Source of the DNA: Parvibaculum sp.
GTDB taxonomy: Bacteria > Pseudomonadota > Alphaproteobacteria > Parvibaculales > Parvibaculaceae
DNA: 56,555 bases
NCBI RefSeq assembly: GCF_030694575.1
Contig: NZ_JAUYUS010000013.1
Span: 1 to 56,555 of the forward strand
Direction: 5' to 3'
The notes below the pieces were generated by a model. The model was not told where the DNA came from. It searched no databases and saw only the letters and a list, made by a program, of their open reading frames with translations. The position numbers were made by a program, and so were the translations under genes. This document shows, one piece after another, positions 27,774 through 39,526 of this stretch. Within the stretch, counting starts at the first letter, position 1. Every line of letters starts with the position of its first letter.

Positions 27774-28517
27774 ATGTTTCCCATCTCCGACGACAATTCC
27801 GAACCCGGCACACCCATCGTCACATGGGCGATCATCGCGGCGTGCGTTGCCGTGTTTTTCTGGCAGTATTCGCTGCCGCCCGGCGCGGCGGAGCTTGCCG
27901 TCTATCAATTCGGGCTCATTCCGGGCGTGCTTTTCGGCACCACGGAGATGGCGGATGCGCCGGTGCCCGCCTGGGCGACGGTCATCACCTCGATGTTCAT
28001 GCATGGCGGGCTCGCGCATCTCGGCGGCAACATGCTCTATCTCTGGATATTCGGCGACAATATCGAGCTGGCGATGGGGCGGCTCCGCTTCATCGTGTTC
28101 TATGTCGTGTGCGGCATCGCGGCGGCGCTGACGCATGCGCTGATGGTGCCTGCGTCCACCGTGCCGCTGGTCGGCGCGAGCGGTGCGATCTCCGGCGTGC
28201 TCGGGGCCTATCTGCTGCTCTATCCGCGCGGGCGGGTGCGCGTTCTCTTCCTGCCGCTTCCGATCATCATCGTGCGAACATTTTATGTCCCCGCGATCGT
28301 CGTGCTCGGGCTCTGGTTCGTCATTCAGGTGGTGAGCGGGCTTGCCAGTCCGGTCGAGGAGGCGGGCGTCGCCTTCTGGGCGCATGTCGGCGGTTTCGTG
28401 GCGGGGATGGTGCTGGTGCCGCTTTTCAAGCGGCGCGACGTGCCGCTGTTTCACAAGGCGGCGCCGAAAGTGTTCGATGCGCGCACGGTGGACCGGCGCC
28501 GGGGGCCTTGGGGCTAA
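27774..28517 (+). CDS. rhomboid family intramembrane serine protease
   Basis: A 247-residue protein with about six membrane helices. The catalytic Ser136 lies in GASGAISG; His82 and Asn86 of 'HLGGN' and the second catalytic-type His of 'FWAHVGGF' (about residue 204) are present, so it should be active. It cleaves membrane-embedded substrates; none can be named. Its stop codon overlaps that of the convergent aldose epimerase gene by three bases. Confidence 0.92.
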   Translation: MFPISDDNSEPGTPIVTWAIIAACVAVFFWQYSLPPGAAELAVYQFGLIPGVLFGTTEMADAPVPAWATVITSMFMHGGLAHLGGNMLYLWIFGDNIELAMGRLRFIVFYVVCGIAAALTHALMVPASTVPLVGASGAISGVLGAYLLLYPRGRVRVLFLPLPIIIVRTFYVPAIVVLGLWFVIQVVSGLASPVEEAGVAFWAHVGGFVAGMVLVPLFKRRDVPLFHKAAPKVFDARTVDRRRGPWG

Positions 28518-29404
28518 GCATCCTCCACGAGGAAGCGGCAGAGGAGTTCCATCGTTTCGCCCGGGGCGAGGGTGCGCAGGCCGGTGACGCTTTCGCGCTC
28601 GGGGCGGTTCACGGCGTCGGGGGCGTGGCTGACGGGTTCGGCGCAGAAGAAGTCCTCGCCCGGCGGTGCATAGACGATGGCATGGGGTGCGCCTTCCGCC
28701 TCGATGCGGAGCGCGCGGGGGCGGTCCGCCCATGCGATGCGAAAGCGGCCGTCGCTTTCCGAGAAGCAGTGATCGACCTCCACATCCTTCATCTCGCGCC
28801 CGCCGTCGAAACGCCATTTCTCCGGCGTGGGGGCGAGGCCGGTCGGCACGCCGTCCGCACCGCTTTCCCAGACCTTGGGAAGCCGCGCCTGCAGGCGGGC
28901 GGTGGCCCGGCCGCCGAAGAAGGGATGGAGGCCGAGGCCGCCGGGCATCGGATCGGCGGAAAGGTTCTTCAGACGCATGAGGACAATGAGGCCTTGCGGT
29001 CCGAGCGCGAAATGCTGCTCGGCCTCGAAGCTCCACGGCCATGTCCAGCGGTTGTTCTCGGCATTGTGGGCGAAGCGGAGGCGCGCGGCGTTGCCGCCTG
29101 CTTCCAGCACCTCCCAGGGCGATTGCCAGCCGCGGCCATGGATCGCATGCGGCACGCAGATGACGTCGGGCGGCAGTTGCACCTCATGCGCGCCGAAGCG
29201 GAAGCGGCCATTGGTGATGCGGCCGGAAAAGGGAACCAGCGGATAACAGGCCATGTCGAGGGGGCCGGGCGCGGCGCAATCGCGCGGGAGGGGCCGCAGC
29301 AATTGCTGCACGCCGCCTTCATGGCGGCAGGAGAAGCGCGCGATGCAGCCGCCCGTTTCCGGCGCGATGACGGTTTCGAGACTGTCGTGGACGAGGGTCA
29401 GCAT
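28514..29404 (-). CDS. aldose 1-epimerase family protein
   Basis: A 296-residue cytoplasmic protein of the galactose mutarotase fold. Conserved parts include 'CYPLVPFSGRITNGRF', 'HAIHGRGWQSPW' with the catalytic-type His, 'MPGGLGLHPFF' and a Glu in the 'GEDFFCAEPVSHAPDA' segment. It probably interconverts sugar anomers. The ATG at 29404 has no strong ribosome binding site; a TTG at 29440 would extend it by 12 residues. Its promoter region runs against the guanidine operon's control region. Confidence 0.82.
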   Translation of the reverse strand: MLTLVHDSLETVIAPETGGCIARFSCRHEGGVQQLLRPLPRDCAAPGPLDMACYPLVPFSGRITNGRFRFGAHEVQLPPDVICVPHAIHGRGWQSPWEVLEAGGNAARLRFAHNAENNRWTWPWSFEAEQHFALGPQGLIVLMRLKNLSADPMPGGLGLHPFFGGRATARLQARLPKVWESGADGVPTGLAPTPEKWRFDGGREMKDVEVDHCFSESDGRFRIAWADRPRALRIEAEGAPHAIVYAPPGEDFFCAEPVSHAPDAVNRPERESVTGLRTLAPGETMELLCRFLVEDA

Positions 29405-29528
29405 GAAATTCGCATCCGATAGCGGCAGGTGCCCAAACAAAAGGCAGGCCGCGTTGCGGTCTGCTTATTTCCGAGCCTGCACTGCCTCGCCGCCGCCGCC
29501 AAGCCCCCGATTTGCCGCCGTTCGCTTC

Positions 29529-29543
29529 TGGCACGGGGCTTGC
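29529..29543 (+). promoter_or_regulatory. candidate sigma-54 (RpoN) promoter of the guanidine operon
   Basis: TGGCACGGGGCTTGC fits the -24/-12 consensus TGGCACG-N4-TTGC, with GG at 29530-29531 and GC at 29542-29543 at the required spacing. Transcription would start near 29555, a few bases before the riboswitch. Such promoters need an activator; NtrC would be logical for a nitrogen source. TGCC/GGCA half-sites near 29430-29447 could be part of an upstream activator site but are too weak to call. Confidence 0.75.
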
Positions 29544-29562
29544 GAAGCATGGATTGGCAGCG

Positions 29563-29677
29563 GCTAGGGTTCCGGCTTCGCGTTTGCGTTCGAGTTTTGC
29601 GAAGTGCTGGTCCGAGAGCCGCACCCTGTCCGGTGAACAGCGGGCAGGTACACGGCGGGATAAAAGCCCGGGAGACG
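29563..29677 (+). promoter_or_regulatory. guanidine-I (ykkC) riboswitch
   Basis: The conserved blocks occur in order: CTAGGGTTCCGG (29564-29575), GGTCCGAGAG (29609-29618), ACACGG (29650-29655) and GGGATAAAAGCCCGGGAGA (about 29657-29675). These are the sequence signature of the ykkC class that binds free guanidine. It is followed by a hairpin over the first gene's ribosome binding site. This class often controls exactly the transporter and carboxylase genes found downstream. Confidence 0.93.
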
Positions 29678-29721
29678 GATGTAATGCGGGGATTGGCATT
29701 GCAATACCGCCGTGACGCCGA

Positions 29722-29760
29722 TCCTCCGATTTTTGAAACGCGATCACCTGATCCGGAGGA
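29722..29760 (+). promoter_or_regulatory. hairpin that can mask the Shine-Dalgarno sequence of the substrate-binding protein gene
   Basis: TCCTCCG (29722-29728) pairs perfectly with CGGAGGA (29754-29760), which contains the ribosome binding site for the ATG at 29769. This gives an expression platform for translational control by the upstream riboswitch. No terminator stem followed by a T run is seen between riboswitch and gene. Confidence 0.6.
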
Positions 29761-29768
29761 CTGGCTAT

Positions 29769-30851
29769 ATGACTTCTTTCAAGCTCTCTTCACTCAGATT
29801 GTTTACGGCGGCTTTCGCCGCGCTGGCGCTCGTTCTCGTCTCCTTGTCTCCTGCCTACGCAGCGCCGAAAAAGGATTTCAAGGTCGGCTGGTCGATCTAT
29901 GTCGGCTGGATGCCCTGGGGCTACGCGCAGGATAACGGCATCGTCAAGAAGTGGGCCGACAAGTACGGCATCAATATCGAGCTGGTGCAGTTCAACGACT
30001 ACATCGAAGGCATCAACCAGTACACGGCCGGCGCCTATGACGGCATCATGTCGACCAACATGGACGCGCTCGCCATTCCGTCCGCCGGCGGCGTCGACTC
30101 GACCATCCTCATCATCTGCGACTATTCGAACGGCAACGACGTCATCATCCTGAAGGGCAAGGACAAGCTCGCGGACATCAAGGGGCAGAAGGTCAATCTG
30201 GTGGAGCTTTCCGTGTCGCATTACACGCTGGCGCGCGGGCTCGAATCCATCGGCATGAGCGAGAAGGACGTGACGGTGGTGAACACGTCGGATGCCGACA
30301 TGATCGCCGCATGGGGCACGAAGGACGTGACCGCGATGGTGACATGGAACCCGATGGCGGCGGAAATTCTCGCCGACAAGAGCGCATATAATGTCTTCGA
30401 CTCGACGAAGCTTCCCGGCGAAATCCAGGACTCGCTGGTCGTCAACACGCAGACGCTGAAGGACAATCCCGACTTCGCCAAGGCGATGACGGGCATCTGG
30501 TACGAGACGATGGCGCTGATGTCGGCCGGCGACGAGGCCGCCACCGCCGCCAAGACGGCGATGGGCACGGCGTCGGGCACCGATCTCGCGGGCTATGAAG
30601 CGCAGCTCGCGGCGACGGCAATGTTCTACACGCCGCAGGACTATATCTCGTTCACCGAAACGGAACTCGAAAAGACCACGCATTTCGTGAACAAGTTCCT
30701 GTTCGATCACGGGCTGCTGGGTCAGGACGCGACGTCGCCGGGCTATATCGGCATCGAGCTCGCGGACGGAACGATCGTCGGCGAAGCGGGCAATGTGCTG
30801 CTCCGCTACAACACCGAGTACGCGAAGCTTGCCGCCGAAGGCAAGCTCTAG
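29769..30851 (+). CDS. ABC transporter substrate-binding protein of the guanidine/urea-carboxylase operon
   Basis: A 360-residue periplasmic binding protein with a Sec signal peptide (cleavage after AYA, about residue 31). It belongs to the NitT/TauT-like group with an N-terminal 'KVGWSIYVGWMPWGYAQDNGIVKKWADKYGI', the form found in urea-carboxylase-linked transporters. The ATG at 29769 follows GGAGGA, itself covered by a hairpin. Because of the guanidine riboswitch the likely ligand is guanidine; binding of urea or another guanidino compound is an alternative. Confidence 0.88.
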   Translation: MTSFKLSSLRLFTAAFAALALVLVSLSPAYAAPKKDFKVGWSIYVGWMPWGYAQDNGIVKKWADKYGINIELVQFNDYIEGINQYTAGAYDGIMSTNMDALAIPSAGGVDSTILIICDYSNGNDVIILKGKDKLADIKGQKVNLVELSVSHYTLARGLESIGMSEKDVTVVNTSDADMIAAWGTKDVTAMVTWNPMAAEILADKSAYNVFDSTKLPGEIQDSLVVNTQTLKDNPDFAKAMTGIWYETMALMSAGDEAATAAKTAMGTASGTDLAGYEAQLAATAMFYTPQDYISFTETELEKTTHFVNKFLFDHGLLGQDATSPGYIGIELADGTIVGEAGNVLLRYNTEYAKLAAEGKL

Positions 30852-30880
30852 AGGCCGGCGGTCACGAGGTCAGTAACGCC

Positions 30881-31702
30881 ATGCGTAGATTCATCAACCG
30901 GCGGCCGGATGCCGTGACGCAGCTCGCGCTCATGCTCCTGCCGTTCGTAATCGTCGTCATCTGCTACATGGTCGCCTCCGAGGCGCGGCTGTCGGTCAAC
31001 CCGAACGACAAGCTGCTTCCCGGATGGTCGACCATCGCAGCGGCGGTCGAGCGCATGGCGTTTCTGCCCGACCCGCGAACGGGCAACTACCTGCTCTGGA
31101 GCGACACCGTGTCGAGCCTCACAAGGCTCGGCATCGGTGTCGCCATCGCCACGCTGATCGGCGGGGTCTTCGGCATCCTGCAGGGGCTCATTCCCTATTT
31201 CAGAGCCACCTTCAACGCCTTTACGGGCGTGCTGTCGATGATCCCGCCGCTCGCGGTGCTGCCAATTCTCTTCATCATCTTCGGGCTGGGCGAACTCGCG
31301 AAAGTGGTACTGGTGGTGGTGGGTATCGTGCCTTTCATCATCCGCGACCTTGCGCTCCGCACCGCCGAGATTCCACACGAGGAAATCATCAAGGCGCAGA
31401 CGCTCGGTGCTTCGACATGGCAGATCATCCTGCGGGTCGTCGTGCCGCAGATGCTGCCGCGCCTCATCGACGGCGTGCGGCTTTCGCTCGGCGCGGCCTG
31501 GCTCTTTCTCATCGCCGCCGAGGCCATCGCCTCCGACAGCGGGCTCGGCTACCGCATCTTCCTGATGCGCCGCTATCTCGCGATGGATGTCATCCTTCCT
31601 TATGTCGCGTGGATCACCATCCTTGCCTTCTCGCTCGATCTCGCGCTGCGGCTGTTCCAGCGGATCGCCTTCCGCTGGATGTATCGGGGGAACGGGCAAT
31701 GA
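30881..31702 (+). CDS. ABC transporter permease of the guanidine operon
   Basis: A 273-residue inner-membrane protein with about six helices. The cytoplasmic loop 'EIIKAQTLGASTWQIILRVVVPQMLPRLIDGVRLSLG' is the EAA motif that contacts the ATPase in binding-protein-dependent importers of the SsuC/TauC type. It overlaps the ATPase gene by four bases (ATGA) and follows the binding protein by 29 bases. Confidence 0.92.
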   Translation: MRRFINRRPDAVTQLALMLLPFVIVVICYMVASEARLSVNPNDKLLPGWSTIAAAVERMAFLPDPRTGNYLLWSDTVSSLTRLGIGVAIATLIGGVFGILQGLIPYFRATFNAFTGVLSMIPPLAVLPILFIIFGLGELAKVVLVVVGIVPFIIRDLALRTAEIPHEEIIKAQTLGASTWQIILRVVVPQMLPRLIDGVRLSLGAAWLFLIAAEAIASDSGLGYRIFLMRRYLAMDVILPYVAWITILAFSLDLALRLFQRIAFRWMYRGNGQ

Positions 31703-32472
31703 CGCGCGTGACGGTTGAAAACCTCTGGAAGTCCTATGGCGACCAGACCGTGCTCGAGAACGTCAGCTTCGAGACGGAGCCGGGCTCCTTCATTTCGCTG
31801 GTCGGGCCGTCGGGCTGCGGCAAGTCCACTTTCCTTCGCATGATGCTGGGCGACGAGGCGCCCTCCAAGGGCCGCATCCTGATCGACGGCGTTGCGCTCG
31901 AGGCGGAGCCGTCGCCGGACAGGGGCGTGGTGTTCCAGAAATATTCCGTCTTTCCGCATCTCACCGCCTTGCAGAACGTGATGCTCGGCCTTGAGTTCGC
32001 GGCGAGCCCCGTGGCGGCGCGGCTTTTCGGTCGCGCGCGGCGGCGTGCGCGGGCGGCGTCGCTCGACATGCTCAAATGCGTGGGGCTGGAGCAATCCGCG
32101 CACAAATACCCGTCCGAACTTTCAGGCGGCATGCAGCAGCGGCTCGCGATCGCACAGGCGCTCATCAAGAAGCCGAAGATATTGCTGCTCGACGAGCCCT
32201 TCGGCGCGCTGGACCCTGGTATCCGCGCGGAAGTTCACGAGATCATGCTGCGGCTCTGGCGGGACGAGGGCATGACCATCTTCATGGTGACGCACGATCT
32301 GTCCGAGGCCTTCAAGCTCGGCACGCGCGTCATCGCCTTCGACCGGCGGCGGACGCGGCCGGAAGAGCTGAAAGCCTATGGCGCGACCGTCACCTTCGAT
32401 CTCAAGGTCGACGGCAAGACGGTGCCGCCGCGGCCGGAAGCACCCGCCCCGCTCGCGGCGGCGGCGAAATGA
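31699..32472 (+). CDS. ABC transporter ATP-binding protein of the guanidine operon
   Basis: A 257-residue ATPase with Walker A GPSGCGKST (about residues 36-44), Q-loop 'VVFQKYSVFPHL', signature LSGGMQQRLAIAQAL, Walker B ILLLDEPFGALD and the switch 'VTHD'. It drives the importer. The ATG at 31699 overlaps the permease stop. The Pro/Ala-rich C-terminal tail of about 25 residues is unremarkable. Confidence 0.95.
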   Translation: MTRVTVENLWKSYGDQTVLENVSFETEPGSFISLVGPSGCGKSTFLRMMLGDEAPSKGRILIDGVALEAEPSPDRGVVFQKYSVFPHLTALQNVMLGLEFAASPVAARLFGRARRRARAASLDMLKCVGLEQSAHKYPSELSGGMQQRLAIAQALIKKPKILLLDEPFGALDPGIRAEVHEIMLRLWRDEGMTIFMVTHDLSEAFKLGTRVIAFDRRRTRPEELKAYGATVTFDLKVDGKTVPPRPEAPAPLAAAAK

Positions 32473-32567: not shown

Positions 32568-33407
32568 ATGGCAGAGGCATCATCCCGCACCGAAACCGCA
32601 AACCCCTATGCGGCGAACAAGGCGCGCTACGAAGCGCTCTACAGCGGCGCGAAAGCGAAGCGCCGCGATTTCAGCGAGGCGACCGGCAATCCCGCCATGC
32701 TCGACCCGGCGCTCGTTACCTTCCGGGAAACGGTGCCGGCGGGCTGGGGCTGGTCCGGGCTCGTGCGGCGCGGCGATACGATGCGCGTCGTCAACACGGG
32801 CGGAACGGCGGGCGTGTCGCTGCTGCTTTACAATGCCGACGACCCGACCGAGCGTTTCAACGCAGGCGACACGGTGAAAATCCAGTGGACGGCGCGGCTC
32901 TCGCGCGGCCGTGTGCTCTTCTCCGACATGGGGCGCGTGCTTGCCTCCATCACCGACGACAGTTTCGGCTTCAACGACGCGCTGGCCGGCGGCTCCACCG
33001 CCCGCACCAACGAAGCGAAATACGGCAACGCGGCTTTGCGCAACACGCGCGACAATTTCATTCTGCTTGCCGCGAAGCACGGGTTGAGCAAGCGCGACCT
33101 GCCGCCCTGCGTGACGCTGTTCGCACCGGTGGGTGTCGACGCATCCGGCACTCTCGCATGGCAGGGCAAGGGTGCGGCGGCGGGCGACTATGTCGATCTG
33201 CGCGCCGAACTCGATCTTCTCGTGTTCGTGTCGAACGCGCCCCATCCGCTCGCGCCCGGCGATTATGCGCCGAAGGATATCGAGCTGGTCGTGTGGTCCT
33301 CGCCGCCGCCCGGCCCGCAGGATTTCTGCCGGACGGCGACGGAGGAGGCGCAACGCGGCTTCGAGAACAACGAATATTACCTCGCGCAGGGGAGGAACGC
33401 CCGATGA
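32568..33407 (+). CDS. DUF1989 protein, urea carboxylase-associated protein 2; probable non-catalytic carboxyguanidine deiminase subunit
   Basis: A 279-residue DUF1989 protein. Proteins annotated UAAP1/UAAP2 are established as a two-subunit carboxyguanidine deiminase (CgdAB) in guanidine operons. Typical segments are 'GWGWSGLVRRGDTMRVVNTGGTAGVSLLLYNADD' and 'LRNTRDNFILLAAKHGLSKRDLPPCVTLF'. The positions that hold cysteine and histidine in its partner (33404-34039) are here 'GFNDALAGGST', 'RNTRDN' and 'SNAPHPL', so the metal site looks lost. The ATG has an AGAGGAG site. It overlaps the partner gene by four bases. Confidence 0.88.
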   Translation: MAEASSRTETANPYAANKARYEALYSGAKAKRRDFSEATGNPAMLDPALVTFRETVPAGWGWSGLVRRGDTMRVVNTGGTAGVSLLLYNADDPTERFNAGDTVKIQWTARLSRGRVLFSDMGRVLASITDDSFGFNDALAGGSTARTNEAKYGNAALRNTRDNFILLAAKHGLSKRDLPPCVTLFAPVGVDASGTLAWQGKGAAAGDYVDLRAELDLLVFVSNAPHPLAPGDYAPKDIELVVWSSPPPGPQDFCRTATEEAQRGFENNEYYLAQGRNAR

Positions 33408-34039
33408 CCCTCACGACATCGCCGCGCGATCCCGCCGCCGCCGTCTACGATTTCACCGTGCCCGCCAACAGGCCCTGGTCCCATGTCGTGAAGAAGGGGC
33501 AGGTGCTGCGCATCGTCGATCTCGACGGGCCGCAGGCTGTGGACACGCTTTTCTACAATGCGCACGACCCGGAGGAGCGCTATTGCGCGCAGGAGACCGT
33601 GCGCGCGCAAGGCTCGCCCTATCTCACCACGGGTTCGCGCCTCTTCACGAACGAGGGCAATGCGATGGCCGTCGTCGTCGCCGACACGGTGGGTGGCCAC
33701 GACACGTCGGCGGGTGCCTGTTCGTCGGAAGCGAATACGGTGCGCTTCGGCCACGAGACGAAATACATGCACAGCTGCCGCGACAATTTCGTGATGGCGC
33801 TCTCGCAACATGGCATGACGAAGCGCGATCTCGTGTCGAACATCAATTTTTTCATGAATGTGCCGGTGGAGCCGGACGGGACGCTCGCCATCGTCGATGG
33901 TGTGTCGAAGCCGGGCGACTATGTGGAGATAAAGGCGGAGATGGACATTCTCTGCGTCATCTCCAATTGCCCGCAGGTGAACAATCCCTGCAACGGCTTC
34001 AATCCCACACCGATCCGCACATTGATCTGGGACGCATGA
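33404..34039 (+). CDS. DUF1989 protein, urea carboxylase-associated protein 1; probable catalytic carboxyguanidine deiminase subunit
   Basis: A 211-residue DUF1989 protein that pairs with the preceding one to release ammonia from carboxyguanidine, giving allophanate. Candidate metal ligands lie in 'GGHDTSAGACS', 'YMHSCRDNF' and 'VISNCPQVNNPCNG'. The start overlaps the preceding stop (ATGA) with GGAGG upstream, so synthesis of the two subunits is likely coupled. I do not assign the A or B letter because the order of names is not evident from sequence. Confidence 0.9.
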   Translation: MTLTTSPRDPAAAVYDFTVPANRPWSHVVKKGQVLRIVDLDGPQAVDTLFYNAHDPEERYCAQETVRAQGSPYLTTGSRLFTNEGNAMAVVVADTVGGHDTSAGACSSEANTVRFGHETKYMHSCRDNFVMALSQHGMTKRDLVSNINFFMNVPVEPDGTLAIVDGVSKPGDYVEIKAEMDILCVISNCPQVNNPCNGFNPTPIRTLIWDA

Positions 34040-34118: not shown

Positions 34119-37100
34119 ATGTTCGCCAGGGTTCTGATCGCCAATCGCGGCGAGATTGCAGTTCGCGTCATCGAGACGCTGCGGCGCATGGGTATTTCGC
34201 CGGTCGCGATCTATTCCGAAGCCGATCGTTTTGCGCCGCATGTGCGCCTCGCCGACGAGGCGGTATGCGTCGGCCCGGCGCCGGTCGCGGAAAGCTATCT
34301 CGATGTCGATGCCATTCTCGATGCCGTGCGCGCCACGGGCGCCGAGGCCGTGCATCCGGGTTACGGGTTTCTGAGCGAGAACCCGGAATTCGCGAGCGCG
34401 CTGGCGCGCGAGGGCGTCGCCTTTATCGGGCCCCGGCCGGAACATATGCGCGCCTTCGCGCTGAAGCATACGGCGCGCGAACTGGCGGAGAAGAGCGGCG
34501 TGCCGCTGCTGCCGGGATCGGGCCTCATCGTCGATCTCGACGATGCGCTGACGCAGGCGAACGAGATCGGTTATCCGGTGATGCTGAAAAGCACGGCTGG
34601 GGGCGGCGGCATCGGTTTGCAGCTTTGCCATTCGGCGGCGGACATGCCGCGCCTCTACGACACGGTGCGGCGTCTCGCGCTGGCGAATTTCAAGGACAGC
34701 GGCCTCTTCATCGAGAAATATGTCGCCGCCGCGCGGCACATCGAGGTGCAGATTTTCGGCGATGGCGCGGGAAATGTCATCGCGCTCGGCGAACGCGATT
34801 GCTCGGCGCAGCGCCGCAACCAGAAGGTCATCGAGGAGACGCCGGCGCCGAACCTCACGGCGGAGAACCGCGCGGCGCTGCACGAAGCGGCGGTGCGGCT
34901 TGGCGAAAGCGTTTCCTATGCGTCGGCCGGAACGGTCGAGTTCATCTATGACGAGACGGAAAAGAAATTCTATTTCCTCGAAGTGAATACGCGGCTGCAG
35001 GTCGAACATCCCGTGACGGAAGAGGTGACGGGGCTCGATCTTGTCGAAATGATGGTGCGTCAGGCGGCCGGAGACATCGGCGATCTCGCGGCGTATCAGC
35101 GCGAGCCCGCGGGACATGCCATCGAGGTCCGGCTTTATGCGGAAGATCCCGGCCGCAATTTCCAGCCGTCGTCCGGTCTTCTCACCGAGGTTTCCTTTCC
35201 CGCTGATGCGCGCATCGACGGATGGATCGCCACGGGAACGGAGGTGACGCCGTTCTACGATCCGATGCTCGCCAAGATCATCGTGAAAGGCGGAACGCGC
35301 GCGGAGGCCGTTGCGAAGCTTGCCGGCGTGCTCGATGCGTCCCGCGTCTACGGCATCGAGACCAATCTCGACTATTTGCGGGTTCTCGCGCGGGCACCGG
35401 AATTTCTCGACGGCCGCATGCTCACTTCGACGCTCGCCGGGTACGATTATGAAAGCGCCGGCATCGACGTTCTCGCGCCCGGCGCACAGTCGAGCCTGCA
35501 GGATTATCCGGGCCGCGTGGGGCTGTGGAATGTCGGTGTGCCGCCGTCCGGGCCGATGGACCCGCTGTCGCACCGGCTGGCGAACCGCCTCGTCGGCAAT
35601 CCCCAGGATGCGGCAACGCTGGAAATGACGCTGAACGGGCCGACGCTGCGTTTTCGCGGCGACGCGACCATCGCGCTTGGCGGCGCGGAAATGAAGGCGA
35701 CGCTCGACGGCGCGGCCGTGCCGTTCTGGCAGGCGGTCGATGTGAAGCGCGGGCAGGTGCTGGCGCTCGGCGCGGTCGAGGGTGCGGGGCAGCGCGCCTA
35801 TCTCGCCGTGCGCCACGGTTTCGACGCGCCGGTCTATCTCGGCTCGCGCTCCGCCTTCACGCTGGGGCGGTTCGGCGGCCATGCACCGGGCGCGCTGAAG
35901 ACGGGCGATGTGCTGCGCGTCAATCGGGAGGGCGCAGTTGCGCCCGCGGCTTCGGGGCCGCTGCCTCTCTCCGCGCGGCCCGCGCTGACGCGCGAATGGG
36001 AAATCGCGGCGCTATACGGGCCGCATGGCGCGCCGGACTTCTTCCTCGACGAGGACATAGAGGCGCTGTTCGGCACGGCCTACGAGGTTCACTACAATTC
36101 AGCGCGCACGGGCGTGCGGCTGATGGGACCGAAGCCCGGCTGGGCGCGCAAGGATGGCGGCGAGGCGGGGCTTCACCCGTCGAACATTCACGACAACGCC
36201 TATGCCGTCGGCACGATCGACTTTACCGGCGACATGCCGATCATTCTCGGGCCGGACGGGCCGAGCCTTGGCGGCTTCGTCTGCCCGGCGACGCTCGCCA
36301 AGGCGGAGCTCTGGAAGCTCGGGCAGTTGAGGCCGGGCGACAAGGTGCGCTTCCGGAGGATCGGCGAGGACGAGGCGGCGGAACTGCGCCGGGCCGAGGA
36401 AGGCCGGATCGAGACGCTTCTGCGCCCCGCCGCGCCCGTCATCGCAGCCGCCCCGCATGAAGATGCGATCCTCGCGCGGCTCACCGACCTCGAAACGGAA
36501 GTCACCTATCGCCGCGCGGGCGACGATTATCTGTTGATCGAATACGGGCCCATCGTTCTCGACTTCGCATTGCGCTTCCGCGCCCACGCGATGATGACGG
36601 CGCTGGAGGCACGCGCGCTTGCCGGCATCCTCGAAATGACGCCGGGCATCCGCTCGCTGCAGATCCATTTCGATCCCGATATTCTTCCTGCACGGAAACT
36701 TCTCGCCCTGCTTGAGGAGATGGAGCGCGCGCTTCCCGCGAGCGCCGACATCGAAGTGCCGAGCCGCATCGTGCATCTGCCCTTGTCGTGGGACGACGAG
36801 GCGGCGCGGGAGGCGGTGCGCAAATACGGCACGCTGGTCCGGCCCGATGCGCCCTGGGTGCCGAGCAATATCGAATTCATCCGCCGGATCAACGGCCTCT
36901 CCCATATCGAGGATGTGCGCCGCATCGTCTATGACGCGGACTACATGGTGCTGGGTCTCGGCGATGTCTATCTCGGCGCGCCGGTCGCGACGCCGCTCGA
37001 TCCGCGTCATCGGCTCGTCACGACGAAATACAATCCCGCGCGGACATGGACGCCGGAAAACGCGGTCGGCATCGGCGGCGCCTATCTCTGCGTCTATGGC

Positions 37101-37739
37101 ATGGAGGGGCCGGGCGGCTACCAGCTTGTCGGCCGCACGGTGCAGATGTGGAACAGCTGGCGCCGGACGGAAAATTTCGGAAAGCCGTGGCTCTTGCGTT
37201 TCTTCGACCGCTTGCGCTTCTTCCCGGTCTCGGCGGAGGAGCTTCTCGATGCGCGGGAGGCGTTTCTGCACGGCGAGTATGAAGTGCGCATCGAGGAGGG
37301 GAGCTTCCGCCTCAGCGATTATTTCTCCTATCTCGACGAGAACGCCGCCGCCATCGCCGATTTCCGCGTGTCGCAGCGCCATGCCTTCGAGGAGGAGCGC
37401 CGCCGCTGGGAAGAGCAGGGCCTCGCGATGGCGTCGATGGAGCCCGAGGCAGAGACAATCGAGGAAATTTCCGAATTGCCGGAAGGCGGGCAGCTTGTGG
37501 AAGCGGGCGTTCCCGGCAATGTCTGGTCGATCGGCGTCGTGCCGGGCGACGAGGTTGCCGCCGACGATACGCTGGTGATCATGGAGTCGATGAAGATGGA
37601 AATCGAAGTGCGCGCGCCCTTCGCGGCGCGGGTGCATGAAGTGCATTGCGCGCCGGGCAAGATGGTTCAGGCGGGGCAGGCGCTTGTGACGCTGGTGCCG
37701 CTCGACGAGGTGCAACCGAGGCTGGAGGCTGTGTCGTGA
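34119..37739 (+). CDS. biotin-dependent guanidine carboxylase (usually annotated urea carboxylase)
   Basis: A 1206-residue multidomain enzyme. Residues 1-450 are a biotin carboxylase with 'MFARVLIANRGEIAVRV', the Gly-rich ATP loop 'STAGGGGIG' and 'FLEVNTRLQVEHPVTE'. About 460-750 and 770-1050 are the carboxyltransferase halves (AHS2/KipA-like, beginning 'VLAPGAQSSLQDYPGR', and AHS1/KipI-like). The C-terminus is a biotinyl domain with the biotin-accepting Lys in ESMKMEIE. It uses ATP and bicarbonate to carboxylate a small amide or amidine. The guanidine riboswitch and DUF1989 genes point to guanidine rather than urea. The ATG at 34119 has GGAGG and fits the domain start; an upstream in-frame start at 34071 is not family-like. 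Confidence 0.93.
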   Translation: MFARVLIANRGEIAVRVIETLRRMGISPVAIYSEADRFAPHVRLADEAVCVGPAPVAESYLDVDAILDAVRATGAEAVHPGYGFLSENPEFASALAREGVAFIGPRPEHMRAFALKHTARELAEKSGVPLLPGSGLIVDLDDALTQANEIGYPVMLKSTAGGGGIGLQLCHSAADMPRLYDTVRRLALANFKDSGLFIEKYVAAARHIEVQIFGDGAGNVIALGERDCSAQRRNQKVIEETPAPNLTAENRAALHEAAVRLGESVSYASAGTVEFIYDETEKKFYFLEVNTRLQVEHPVTEEVTGLDLVEMMVRQAAGDIGDLAAYQREPAGHAIEVRLYAEDPGRNFQPSSGLLTEVSFPADARIDGWIATGTEVTPFYDPMLAKIIVKGGTRAEAVAKLAGVLDASRVYGIETNLDYLRVLARAPEFLDGRMLTSTLAGYDYESAGIDVLAPGAQSSLQDYPGRVGLWNVGVPPSGPMDPLSHRLANRLVGNPQDAATLEMTLNGPTLRFRGDATIALGGAEMKATLDGAAVPFWQAVDVKRGQVLALGAVEGAGQRAYLAVRHGFDAPVYLGSRSAFTLGRFGGHAPGALKTGDVLRVNREGAVAPAASGPLPLSARPALTREWEIAALYGPHGAPDFFLDEDIEALFGTAYEVHYNSARTGVRLMGPKPGWARKDGGEAGLHPSNIHDNAYAVGTIDFTGDMPIILGPDGPSLGGFVCPATLAKAELWKLGQLRPGDKVRFRRIGEDEAAELRRAEEGRIETLLRPAAPVIAAAPHEDAILARLTDLETEVTYRRAGDDYLLIEYGPIVLDFALRFRAHAMMTALEARALAGILEMTPGIRSLQIHFDPDILPARKLLALLEEMERALPASADIEVPSRIVHLPLSWDDEAAREAVRKYGTLVRPDAPWVPSNIEFIRRINGLSHIEDVRRIVYDADYMVLGLGDVYLGAPVATPLDPRHRLVTTKYNPARTWTPENAVGIGGAYLCVYGMEGPGGYQLVGRTVQMWNSWRRTENFGKPWLLRFFDRLRFFPVSAEELLDAREAFLHGEYEVRIEEGSFRLSDYFSYLDENAAAIADFRVSQRHAFEEERRRWEEQGLAMASMEPEAETIEEISELPEGGQLVEAGVPGNVWSIGVVPGDEVAADDTLVIMESMKMEIEVRAPFAARVHEVHCAPGKMVQAGQALVTLVPLDEVQPRLEAVS

Positions 37740-39526
37740 AGGGTTTTTCTTTTTCTTTCGCCTCGCTGCGGGCGGCCTTCGCGGCCGGTGTCCGTGCGGA
37801 AGACGTTGCGGCGGAGGCGCTTTCGCGCGCCGATGCCTGTGGCGATCCCGCCGTCTGGATTTCGCGCGTGCCGCATGAGGATGCGATCGCGCGGGCAAAA
37901 TCGCTCGATGCCTTGCCGCGCGAGCAGCGGGCGCGCATGCCGCTGTTCGGCATTCCCTTTGCGGTGAAGGACAATATCGACCTTGCCGGATTGCCGACCA
38001 CGGCGGGCTGTCCCGCCTTCGCCTATGAGCCGAAGGAGAGCGCGCCCGTCGTCGCGCGGCTGATCGCGGCGGGCGCCGTCCCCATCGGCAAGACCAACCT
38101 CGACCAGTTCGCGACCGGGCTTGTCGGCACGCGCTCGCCGCATGGGAGCCCGCGCTCCGTCTTCAATGCCGATTATATTTCCGGCGGCTCTTCCTCCGGT
38201 TCCGCCGTCGCCGTGGCCGCGGGGCTTGTCGGCTTCGCGCTCGGCACCGACACGGCGGGATCGGGCCGCGTGCCCGCCGCCTTCAACAACATCGTCGGGT
38301 TGAAGCCGACGCGCGGCATGCTTTCCACGCGCGGCGTCGTGCCTGCCTGCCGGTCGCTCGATTGCGTCTCGATCTTCGCGCTGACGGCGGAGGATGCGCA
38401 GGCGGTGTTCGAGGAAGCGGCAATCTTCGACCCGCTGGACATTTATGCCCGCGCCCGGATGCCGGAAGTGCCGCCGCTGCCGGGCACTGGCTTCACTTTC
38501 GCGGTGCCGCGCGCGTCCGACCTGCAATTCTTCGGCGACGACGAGGCGGCGCGGTTGTTCGGCGAGGCGGCGGAGCGGCTGGAAGAACTGGGCGGGCGGG
38601 CGCGCCGGATCGATTTCTCGATGTTCGCGGAGGCGGCGGCGCTGCTCTACGAGGGCCCCTGGGTGGCGGAGCGGACGGCGGCGGTCGGCGCCTTCATCGA
38701 GGCGCATGAGAAGGATACCGATCCGACGGTCAGGGGCATCGTTCTCGGCGGAAAGTCCAGAAGCGCGGTCGAGGTCTTCGAGGCGATGTACAAGCTCGAA
38801 GCGCTGAAGCGCCGGGCGGCGGCGCTGTTCGCCGATATCGATGTTCTGGTGGTGCCGACCGCGCCCACGACCTACACGGTGGAACAGGTTGCGGCGGAGC
38901 CTTTGAAGCTCAACAGCCGTCTCGGCACCTATACGAATTTCATGAACTTGCTCGACATGGCGGGCATCGCCATTCCGGCGGGCATCGGTATCAAGGGATT
39001 GCCGTTCGGCATCACGCTTGCCGCGCCCGCCTTTTCCGAGACGAAGCTCGTCGCGCTCGCATCCGCCTTCGCGGCGGCGCAGGGGCTCGCGCCCGGCGCG
39101 CCGGGGCAGCGTTTCGAGGATGAAGGCTTCATCGAACTCGCGGTGGTCGGCGCGCATATGTTCGGCCTGCCGCTCAATCATGAACTGACCTCGCGCGGGG
39201 CCATGTTCGTCGAGCGGACGCGCACCATGCCGGGTTACCGTTTCTATGCGCTGGCGGACGGGCCGCCGTTCCGGCCGGGCCTCGTGCGCGTCGCGTCCGG
39301 CGGCGCCTCGATCGAGCTTGAAGTCTGGCGGCTGCCGCGCGCGGCCTTCGGAAGTTTCATCGCCGGCGTGCCGCAGCCCCTGTGCATCGGTACGCTCGAC
39401 CTTGCCAGCGGGCGCAAGGTGAAAGGTTTTCTCTGCGAGGAAAGCGGGCTCGAGGGCGCGGAAGAAATCACCGCGCTCGGCGGCTGGCGCGCCTATATGG
39501 CGCGGAAGATGGAGAAGGCGGGCTAG
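37736..39526 (+). CDS. atzF: allophanate hydrolase
   Basis: A 596-residue amidase-signature enzyme. The Ser-cisSer-Lys triad is visible as Lys in 'FAVKDNIDLAG', and the serines of 'SGGSSSGSAVAV' and 'GTDTAGSGRVPAA'. The C-terminal domain (from about residue 470) is the allophanate-hydrolase-specific domain that completes the breakdown to ammonia and CO2. The start is a GTG at 37736 overlapping the carboxylase stop (GTGA). Its stop overlaps that of the convergent gmhB in a CTAG. It ends the guanidine operon. Confidence 0.93.
   Translation: MKGFSFSFASLRAAFAAGVRAEDVAAEALSRADACGDPAVWISRVPHEDAIARAKSLDALPREQRARMPLFGIPFAVKDNIDLAGLPTTAGCPAFAYEPKESAPVVARLIAAGAVPIGKTNLDQFATGLVGTRSPHGSPRSVFNADYISGGSSSGSAVAVAAGLVGFALGTDTAGSGRVPAAFNNIVGLKPTRGMLSTRGVVPACRSLDCVSIFALTAEDAQAVFEEAAIFDPLDIYARARMPEVPPLPGTGFTFAVPRASDLQFFGDDEAARLFGEAAERLEELGGRARRIDFSMFAEAAALLYEGPWVAERTAAVGAFIEAHEKDTDPTVRGIVLGGKSRSAVEVFEAMYKLEALKRRAAALFADIDVLVVPTAPTTYTVEQVAAEPLKLNSRLGTYTNFMNLLDMAGIAIPAGIGIKGLPFGITLAAPAFSETKLVALASAFAAAQGLAPGAPGQRFEDEGFIELAVVGAHMFGLPLNHELTSRGAMFVERTRTMPGYRFYALADGPPFRPGLVRVASGGASIELEVWRLPRAAFGSFIAGVPQPLCIGTLDLASGRKVKGFLCEESGLEGAEEITALGGWRAYMARKMEKAG

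Follow-up and report, generated by a model that had tools for sequence, protein, structure and literature searches.

Predicted two-signal control of a guanidine-assimilation operon in Parvibaculum by an NtrC/sigma-54 promoter and a guanidine-I riboswitch

The guanidine-assimilation operon of a Parvibaculum strain is proposed to be under two-signal control, where NtrC and sigma-54 would direct transcription and a guanidine-I riboswitch would act as an ON switch of translation, a reading to which we assign a probability of about 0.7. The window, which is the whole stretch of 56,555 nucleotides analyzed in this study, carries on its + strand, in order between positions 29430 and 29771, a dyad, a sigma-54 core, a guanidine-I aptamer, a structured linker, and the Shine-Dalgarno (SD) sequence and start codon (ATG) of the gene for a substrate-binding protein. 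The elements were computed from sequence, as were their conservation and the covariation between an SD-mimic and an anti-SD in the linker.

According to profile matches, the operon encodes ABC-type uptake, the UAAP1 and UAAP2 proteins, a guanidine/urea carboxylase, and an allophanate hydrolase, all on the + strand. The substrate-binding protein of a urea/guanidine-type ABC transporter (29769..30851; TIGR03427, 496 bits against a cut-off of 334) is followed by a permease (30881..31702), whose best matches were of the TauC/SaoP/SsuC type and all under their cut-offs, and an ATPase (31696..32472), which matched ABC ATPase families with none of the 25 listed matches exceeding its cut-off. Homologues of UAAP1 (32568..33407; TIGR03425, 280 bits against 206) and UAAP2 (33404..34039; TIGR03424, 335 bits against 285) come next, which we take to be the carboxyguanidine deiminase subunits. 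The carboxylase (34119..37739; TIGR02712, 1830 bits), named here for either guanidine or urea as the substrate, and the allophanate hydrolase (37724..39526; TIGR02713, 790 bits) complete the set. The order of the guanidine pathway is as given in the available portion of PMC12186494.

The guanidine-I (ykkC) riboswitch aptamer was found at 29553..29676 on the + strand as a match to the full Rfam model RF00442 (model positions 1-107), with a score of 81 bits against a gathering score of 63 and an E-value of 6.7e-13. It was the sole Rfam match above the gathering score in the window, and it supports the claim of a complete guanidine-I riboswitch made in an earlier note on this DNA. Genes for guanidine uptake and degradation adjoin the aptamer, as expected of a riboswitch of this class, and guanidine is the predicted ligand.

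A sigma-54 -24/-12 promoter of the form TGGCAC-N5-TTGC (TGGCACGGGGCTTGC, 29529..29543, + strand) matches the core at all 10 bases, where the earlier note had read a near-consensus element. The canonical distance from the -12 GC places the predicted transcription start (+1) at 29555 on the + strand, the third base of the aptamer match, which fits the start that the same note had expected near this position. The genome contains one match for rpoN (TIGR02395, 446 bits). It also contains nine exact matches to the core, compared with six for a reversed control pattern, so the core match by itself is weak evidence, and its significance comes from position and conservation. The same counts lend some weight to the view that the match is due to chance and that an unseen sigma-70 promoter drives the operon. 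However, the position of the promoter is conserved in relatives that have otherwise diverged in their upstream DNA, and a consensus scan of 28800-31200 identified no sigma-70-like promoter on either strand, leaving this view with hardly any probability.

Conservation was assessed as a core of at least 9/10 within 120 nt upstream of the aptamer, with windows further upstream as controls. In the alphaproteobacterial class sample, such a site was present at 25 of 29 aptamer loci, compared with one of 261 control windows. The phylum sample gave 39 of 55 distinct aptamers against five of 495 control windows, and the Parvibaculaceae gave 23 of 24 loci against two of 200. Three loci were common to two of these samples. 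The class sample left out four of 33 places, namely one at a contig start and three (L051, L052, and L108) that were below the cut-off and had no aptamer in the block search. The phylum sample left out three of 58 places, which were second copies in genomes G712, G654, and G753, and merged the repeats L068 with L093 and L086 with L066. Among the Parvibaculaceae, one of 25 loci (L017) was left out, as its contig ends near the aptamer.

The spacing of promoter and aptamer differed among taxa. In Alphaproteobacteria, 52 of the 54 sites scoring at least 8 lie 31-41 nt before the CTAGGG motif, which would place the +1 at the first bases of the aptamer, while all 34 such sites in other Proteobacteria lie 60-110 nt before it. 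A pattern scan of named genomes revealed at least 119 stretches with both promoter and aptamer, including representatives from Rhizobium, Mesorhizobium, Azospirillum, Devosia, Acinetobacter, Solimonas, and Magnetospirillum. Among the 122 matches listed, the gap between promoter and aptamer was 16-28 nt and most commonly 23 nt (46 matches), and 113 had an operon gene within 2.5 kb.

A published start site is available for one of these genera. In the accessible part of a Cappable-seq study of Magnetospirillum gryphiswaldense (PMC9549626), a minus-strand guanidine-I riboswitch spans 119,680-119,571, and transcription begins at 119,678, the third base of this element; this start was detected at 95% dissolved oxygen and is unlisted at 0%. 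The published start and the predicted start at 29555 are hence both at the third base of the riboswitch match. A genome of the Magnetospirillum genus (G783, locus L281), which is probably of the same strain, encodes on its minus strand a 110-nt aptamer behind a 10/10 site (TGGCACGGGCTTTGC), whose canonical +1 falls on the first base of the model, at a distance of two bases from the start in that study.

The promoter was missing at loci L015, L026, L037, L042, and L046, and at ten more in the phylum sample. At L015, from a Parvibaculum relative (G009), about 50 bp of the relatives' sequence is absent before the aptamer, including the sigma-54 promoter, which is either a true deletion or an assembly fault. 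At L026, L037, and L042, which belong to one genus, a TGCTGTAATTG[TC]ATACAGAGTTTGG block takes the place of the sigma-54 site directly upstream of the aptamer and is perhaps the site of another regulator.

Further upstream, a putative NtrC box (TGCCCAAACAAAAGGCA, 29430..29446, no strand assigned) is centered at about -117 from the predicted +1, and a similar block occurs in most of the aligned Parvibaculum relatives. The box overlaps a TTG-start reading of the divergent gene at 28514-29440 on the - strand, so the true start of that gene is probably further in; the gene itself had a weak aldose-1-epimerase match under the cut-off. The box consensus TGCNCAAANNNNRGGCA has three exact matches in the genome: at this operon, at the glnBA promoter, and on a short odd contig. 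At glnBA, a 9/10 sigma-54 site is also present, with its predicted +1 located 96 bp downstream of the box. The odd contig (G000:C71, locus L247) is 3.7 kb long and part of the same assembly as the window; its open reading frames looked unlike the rest by eye, and it may be a contaminant. With one mismatch allowed, the box also occurs twice at the start of the nifR3 (dusB) gene, which lies before ntrC with one open reading frame between them, and the second copy overlaps the called start codon. Genome-wide, the one-mismatch pattern was not enriched (26 occurrences versus 30 for the reversed control), and the argument therefore rests on the location of the matches. More broadly, a [TC]GC-N11-GC[AG] dyad was present at 71 of 88 promoters of such aptamer loci compared with 204 of 604 control windows. 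The classical TGCACC-N5-GGTGCA box (at least 9/12) was absent from the 300 nt that precede the aptamer of the window; an E. coli-type classical NtrC consensus was hence rejected for this promoter, and the dyad analysis took its place.

The box common to glnBA and nifR3-ntrC suggests NtrC as the activator. An NtrC gene was identified at 714 bits against a cut-off of 559, as the single match over the cut-off in the genome. Three more proteins cover most of the NtrC model under the cut-off, and they lend some weight to the alternative that the sigma-54 site is real while an enhancer-binding protein other than NtrC (an NtrX-like one or either of two more that the genome encodes) drives the operon in response to a signal other than nitrogen. 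This alternative appears unlikely, as it is countered by the shared box and by data from Burkholderia cenocepacia, where an ntrC mutant under nitrogen limitation showed a 6-fold decrease of the urea carboxylase BCAS0272, with BCAS0269 and BCAS0271 entered as 'na(m)' (PMC5491218, in its accessible part). The main text of that paper, as far as available, includes neither the word guanidine nor the word riboswitch. A survey of sigma-54 regulons predicted 102 COG3665 genes, 59% of which were annotated as urea carboxylase (PMC12316311); its available text includes no guanidine, and the word riboswitch only once, in a reference. Ntr control of such operons is, on these sources, partly reported already. 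For the Parvibaculum operon, the claim of the earlier note that nitrogen status sets transcription is well supported by comparison, through the sigma-54 site conserved at the aptamer, the presence of rpoN and NtrC genes, and the dyad common to glnBA and nifR3-ntrC, and NtrC remains the predicted activator.

Between the aptamer and the first gene, the linker on the + strand can form mutually exclusive pairings around the SD. The SD region (CGGAGGACTGGC, 29754..29765), in which the opening energy of GGAGG is 11.0 kcal/mol in the full leader, can be masked by an anti-SD (GCCGATCCTCCG, 29717..29728) that is able to pair with either the SD or an SD-mimic. The perfect 7-bp hairpin claimed over the first ribosome site proved exact, with TCCTCCG at 29722-29728 complementing CGGAGGA at 29754-29760, and in its extended form (29717-29728 with 29754-29765) the helix has 11 of 12 standard pairs, interrupted by a single A-C mismatch. 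The SD-mimic, or anti-anti-SD (GGGGATTGGC, 29688..29697), complements 29717-29726 with -14.1 kcal/mol as a hairpin. It is presented by a hairpin TGTAATGC/GCATTGCA (29680..29703), which is part of the minimum free energy (MFE) fold and has -9.5 kcal/mol alone. The loop of this hairpin is GGGGAUUG, which together with the neighboring GC can pair with GCCGAUCCUC of the anti-SD; because it can do so, the loop mimics the SD. Additionally, an aptamer competitor (CCGCCGTG, 29707..29714) is an 8-bp complement of the 3' core strand of the aptamer (CACGGCGG, 29651..29658), and the two are paired in the ligand-free MFE fold. That fold, composed of the 29651-29658/29707-29714 duplex, the hairpin at 29680-29703, and the anti-SD/SD helix, is the proposed OFF state. 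In the window, the energy of the competitor duplex was reached by none of 60 shuffles.

The trio of SD, anti-SD, and SD-mimic was searched for in 150 leader entries, 145 of them distinct after repeats between leader sets were counted once, with start codons called by script. For each anti-SD window, the weaker pairing of the two was taken as the score, and a leader passed if at most one of 30 shuffles reached it. Seventeen leaders with less than 30 nt between aptamer and SD window had no score, and five of the 24 Parvibaculaceae loci (L004, L005, L011, L014, and L021), where the called start codon was at least 140 nt away, were not included in the leader count. The trio passed in 61 of 128 distinct leaders, where about eight were expected, and the remaining 67 were not above shuffles. 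It was nearly universal in the Parvibaculaceae (18 of 19 leaders), and in the alphaproteobacterial set outside the named genomes it passed in 31 of 49 leaders and 11 of 27 genera. In the Rhizobium-type leaders, the loop, anti-SD, and SD were changed together (AAGGGAUUGGC; GCCGAUCCCUUU; AAAGGGG), and in leader L031 they read GGGUUGGC, GCCAACCCC, and GGGGUUGG.

Anchor motifs were carried by 59 of the 150 leader entries, and the SD-mimic:anti-SD helix was aligned in 15 distinct rows anchored on its constant half, including one misregistered row (L185) that was kept. In this alignment, 87% of the cells were paired, and neither this proportion nor the covariation score was reached by any of 500 shuffles. 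Five pairs were changed on both sides; 24 of 500 shuffles had at least as many, and most shuffles had more pair types than the observed helix. In slid registers, the paired cells dropped to 27-53%. An SD-mimic that covaries with the anti-SD makes a guanidine ON switch at the level of translation plausible.

The competitor helix had a narrower distribution. It beat at least 57 of 60 shuffles in ten of 65 trio-bearing entries, all from Parvibaculum, eight of which were among the 13 Parvibaculum entries outside the named-genome set. As a general rule, the competitor helix was hence unsupported among trio-bearing leaders outside Parvibaculum. By eye, the folds of other lineages include a possible pairing of the GGGAG end of the aptamer with a strand before the anti-SD. 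In Acinetobacter (e.g., L118, L121, L135, and L148), the sigma-54 site and the aptamer are present, and the aptamer ends only 11-14 nt before the SD window in 15 of the 19 leaders examined, so any switch there must work differently. Leaders of the alphaproteobacterial type were also observed on a contig labeled Anaerolineae (L218), where the promoter and aptamer start are identical to those of L047, and on one labeled Mycobacterium sp. KBS0706 (L164); both contigs are probably misbinned or mislabeled.

Equilibrium folding revealed a small effect of the aptamer on the SD. With the aptamer omitted, the opening energy of the SD in the window fell from 11.0 to 8.9 kcal/mol, which is still closed. 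The mean SD accessibility rose from 0.10 to 0.21 in the Parvibaculaceae (24 leaders), did not rise in other Alphaproteobacteria (0.26 to 0.25, 29 leaders), and rose slightly elsewhere (0.22 to 0.28, 33 leaders). As the SD is closed at equilibrium in both cases, we deduced the direction of the switch from substrate logic and the order of synthesis, and the small equilibrium effect indicates that the ON state probably depends on that order, since the SD-mimic and the anti-SD are made before the SD. The proposal of the earlier note that guanidine sets translation is supported by the SD-masking helix, the covarying SD-mimic, and a + strand scan that identified no terminator with a loop of 3-8 nt, and it remains a prediction, as the SD stays closed at equilibrium whether the aptamer is present or omitted.

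Control at termination would require the same sigma-54 promoter and a riboswitch acting on transcription, with the stem 29688-29697/29717-29726 followed by CGAUUUUUG as an intrinsic terminator. This would fit the usual mechanism of guanidine-I riboswitches, reviewed as transcriptional ON switches in the accessible part of PMC12186494, and UUUU occurs within 9 nt after the stem in 26 of the 59 anchored leaders (15 of 31 Rhizobium-type, 10 of 18 Parvibaculum-type, and one of 10 others). However, in the window a gap of 3 nt lies between the stem and the U run, and the loop has 19 nt. Among relatives, the run varies from six to two U, and the U's of the Rhizobium-type leaders also pair with the AAAAGGGG SD. 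A scan of 28800-31200, restricted to loops of 3-8 nt, identified no terminator-like site on the + strand and two on the - strand. An intrinsic terminator was negative within that loop range and yet kept as a rival, with a minor but appreciable chance of being correct. Translation is the more likely level of control than termination, and a mixed mechanism is possible.

Guanidine might also, from the same promoter and aptamer, expose or hide a Rho entry site or alter mRNA decay, with the effect on translation being secondary. Riboswitch coupling of translation with Rho termination is cited in the available text of PMC12508155, but the covariation observed here is specific to the SD and requires no Rho site, and we regard such an arrangement as improbable.

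For the preferred reading, a translational ON switch behind an NtrC/sigma-54 promoter, we infer the activator, the assignment of states, the kinetic order, and the AND behavior to be as follows. Under nitrogen limitation, phosphorylated NtrC bound at the box at about -117 would activate sigma-54 RNA polymerase at 29529-29543, and the transcript would start directly as the guanidine-I aptamer. Without guanidine, CCGCCGUG (29707-29714) would invade the aptamer core CACGGCGG (29651-29658), the resulting 29651-29658/29707-29714 hairpin would enclose and isolate the loop with the SD-mimic, and the anti-SD (29717-29728) would be left free to mask the SD. With guanidine, the aptamer would retain its core strand, and the SD-mimic would capture the anti-SD before the SD is transcribed, so that translation could start. 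As the promoter would respond to nitrogen starvation and the riboswitch would uncover the ribosome site, both signals are probably needed for expression, as in the AND gate proposed in the earlier note.

Beyond this operon, the odds seem somewhat better than even that, across Proteobacteria, NtrC/sigma-54 promoters generally drive transcription of the guanidine-I leaders of assimilation operons, with the start fused to the 5' end of the aptamer in Alphaproteobacteria and with translational control through a covarying SD-mimic in many lineages. If true, this would represent a widespread nitrogen-AND-substrate gate that has not been described as such before. It would explain how the costly ATP-dependent guanidine pathway is avoided unless nitrogen is short and guanidine present, and guanidine would join the Ntr-controlled nitrogen sources, which bears on the question of whether guanidine serves as a nutrient in nature. 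Both the fusion of promoter and aptamer and the SD-mimic platform lend themselves to direct testing, the layout is common to many relatives, and Parvibaculum, Rhizobium, and Magnetospirillum are genera with cultured members. In our searches of open-licence literature, no paper was found that joins guanidine-I, ykkC, or guanidine carboxylase to sigma-54, NtrC, or RpoN control.

The proposed system shares features with several known ones. As in other guanidine-I (RF00442) systems, a complete aptamer is upstream of guanidine uptake and degradation genes, but here a sigma-54 promoter abuts the aptamer, and the predicted expression platform is a translational SD decoy instead of the usual terminator. 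The guanidine carboxylase operons of Raoultella, Klebsiella, and Vreelandella likewise combine the pathway with a guanidine-I leader (PMC12186494 and PMC12508155, in their available parts); those operons have both guanidine-I and guanidine-II, while in the window guanidine-I alone was above the Rfam cut-off, and a term search of the two papers found neither NtrC nor a sigma factor. With NtrC/sigma-54 promoters such as those of glnBA, urease genes, and the B. cenocepacia BCAS0269-0272 region, it shares the -24/-12 element, the upstream dyad, and a nitrogen-source operon, and it differs in that the transcript would begin as a substrate-sensing riboswitch. Translational ON riboswitches with anti-anti-SD pairing are known, in which one anti-SD has the SD and the anti-anti-SD as mutually exclusive partners, as predicted here. 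The anti-anti-SD in the present case is an SD mimic in a hairpin loop, for which we know of no named precedent among guanidine-I riboswitches. Each part is known already, and it is the combination of Ntr control with the riboswitch that appears to be new.
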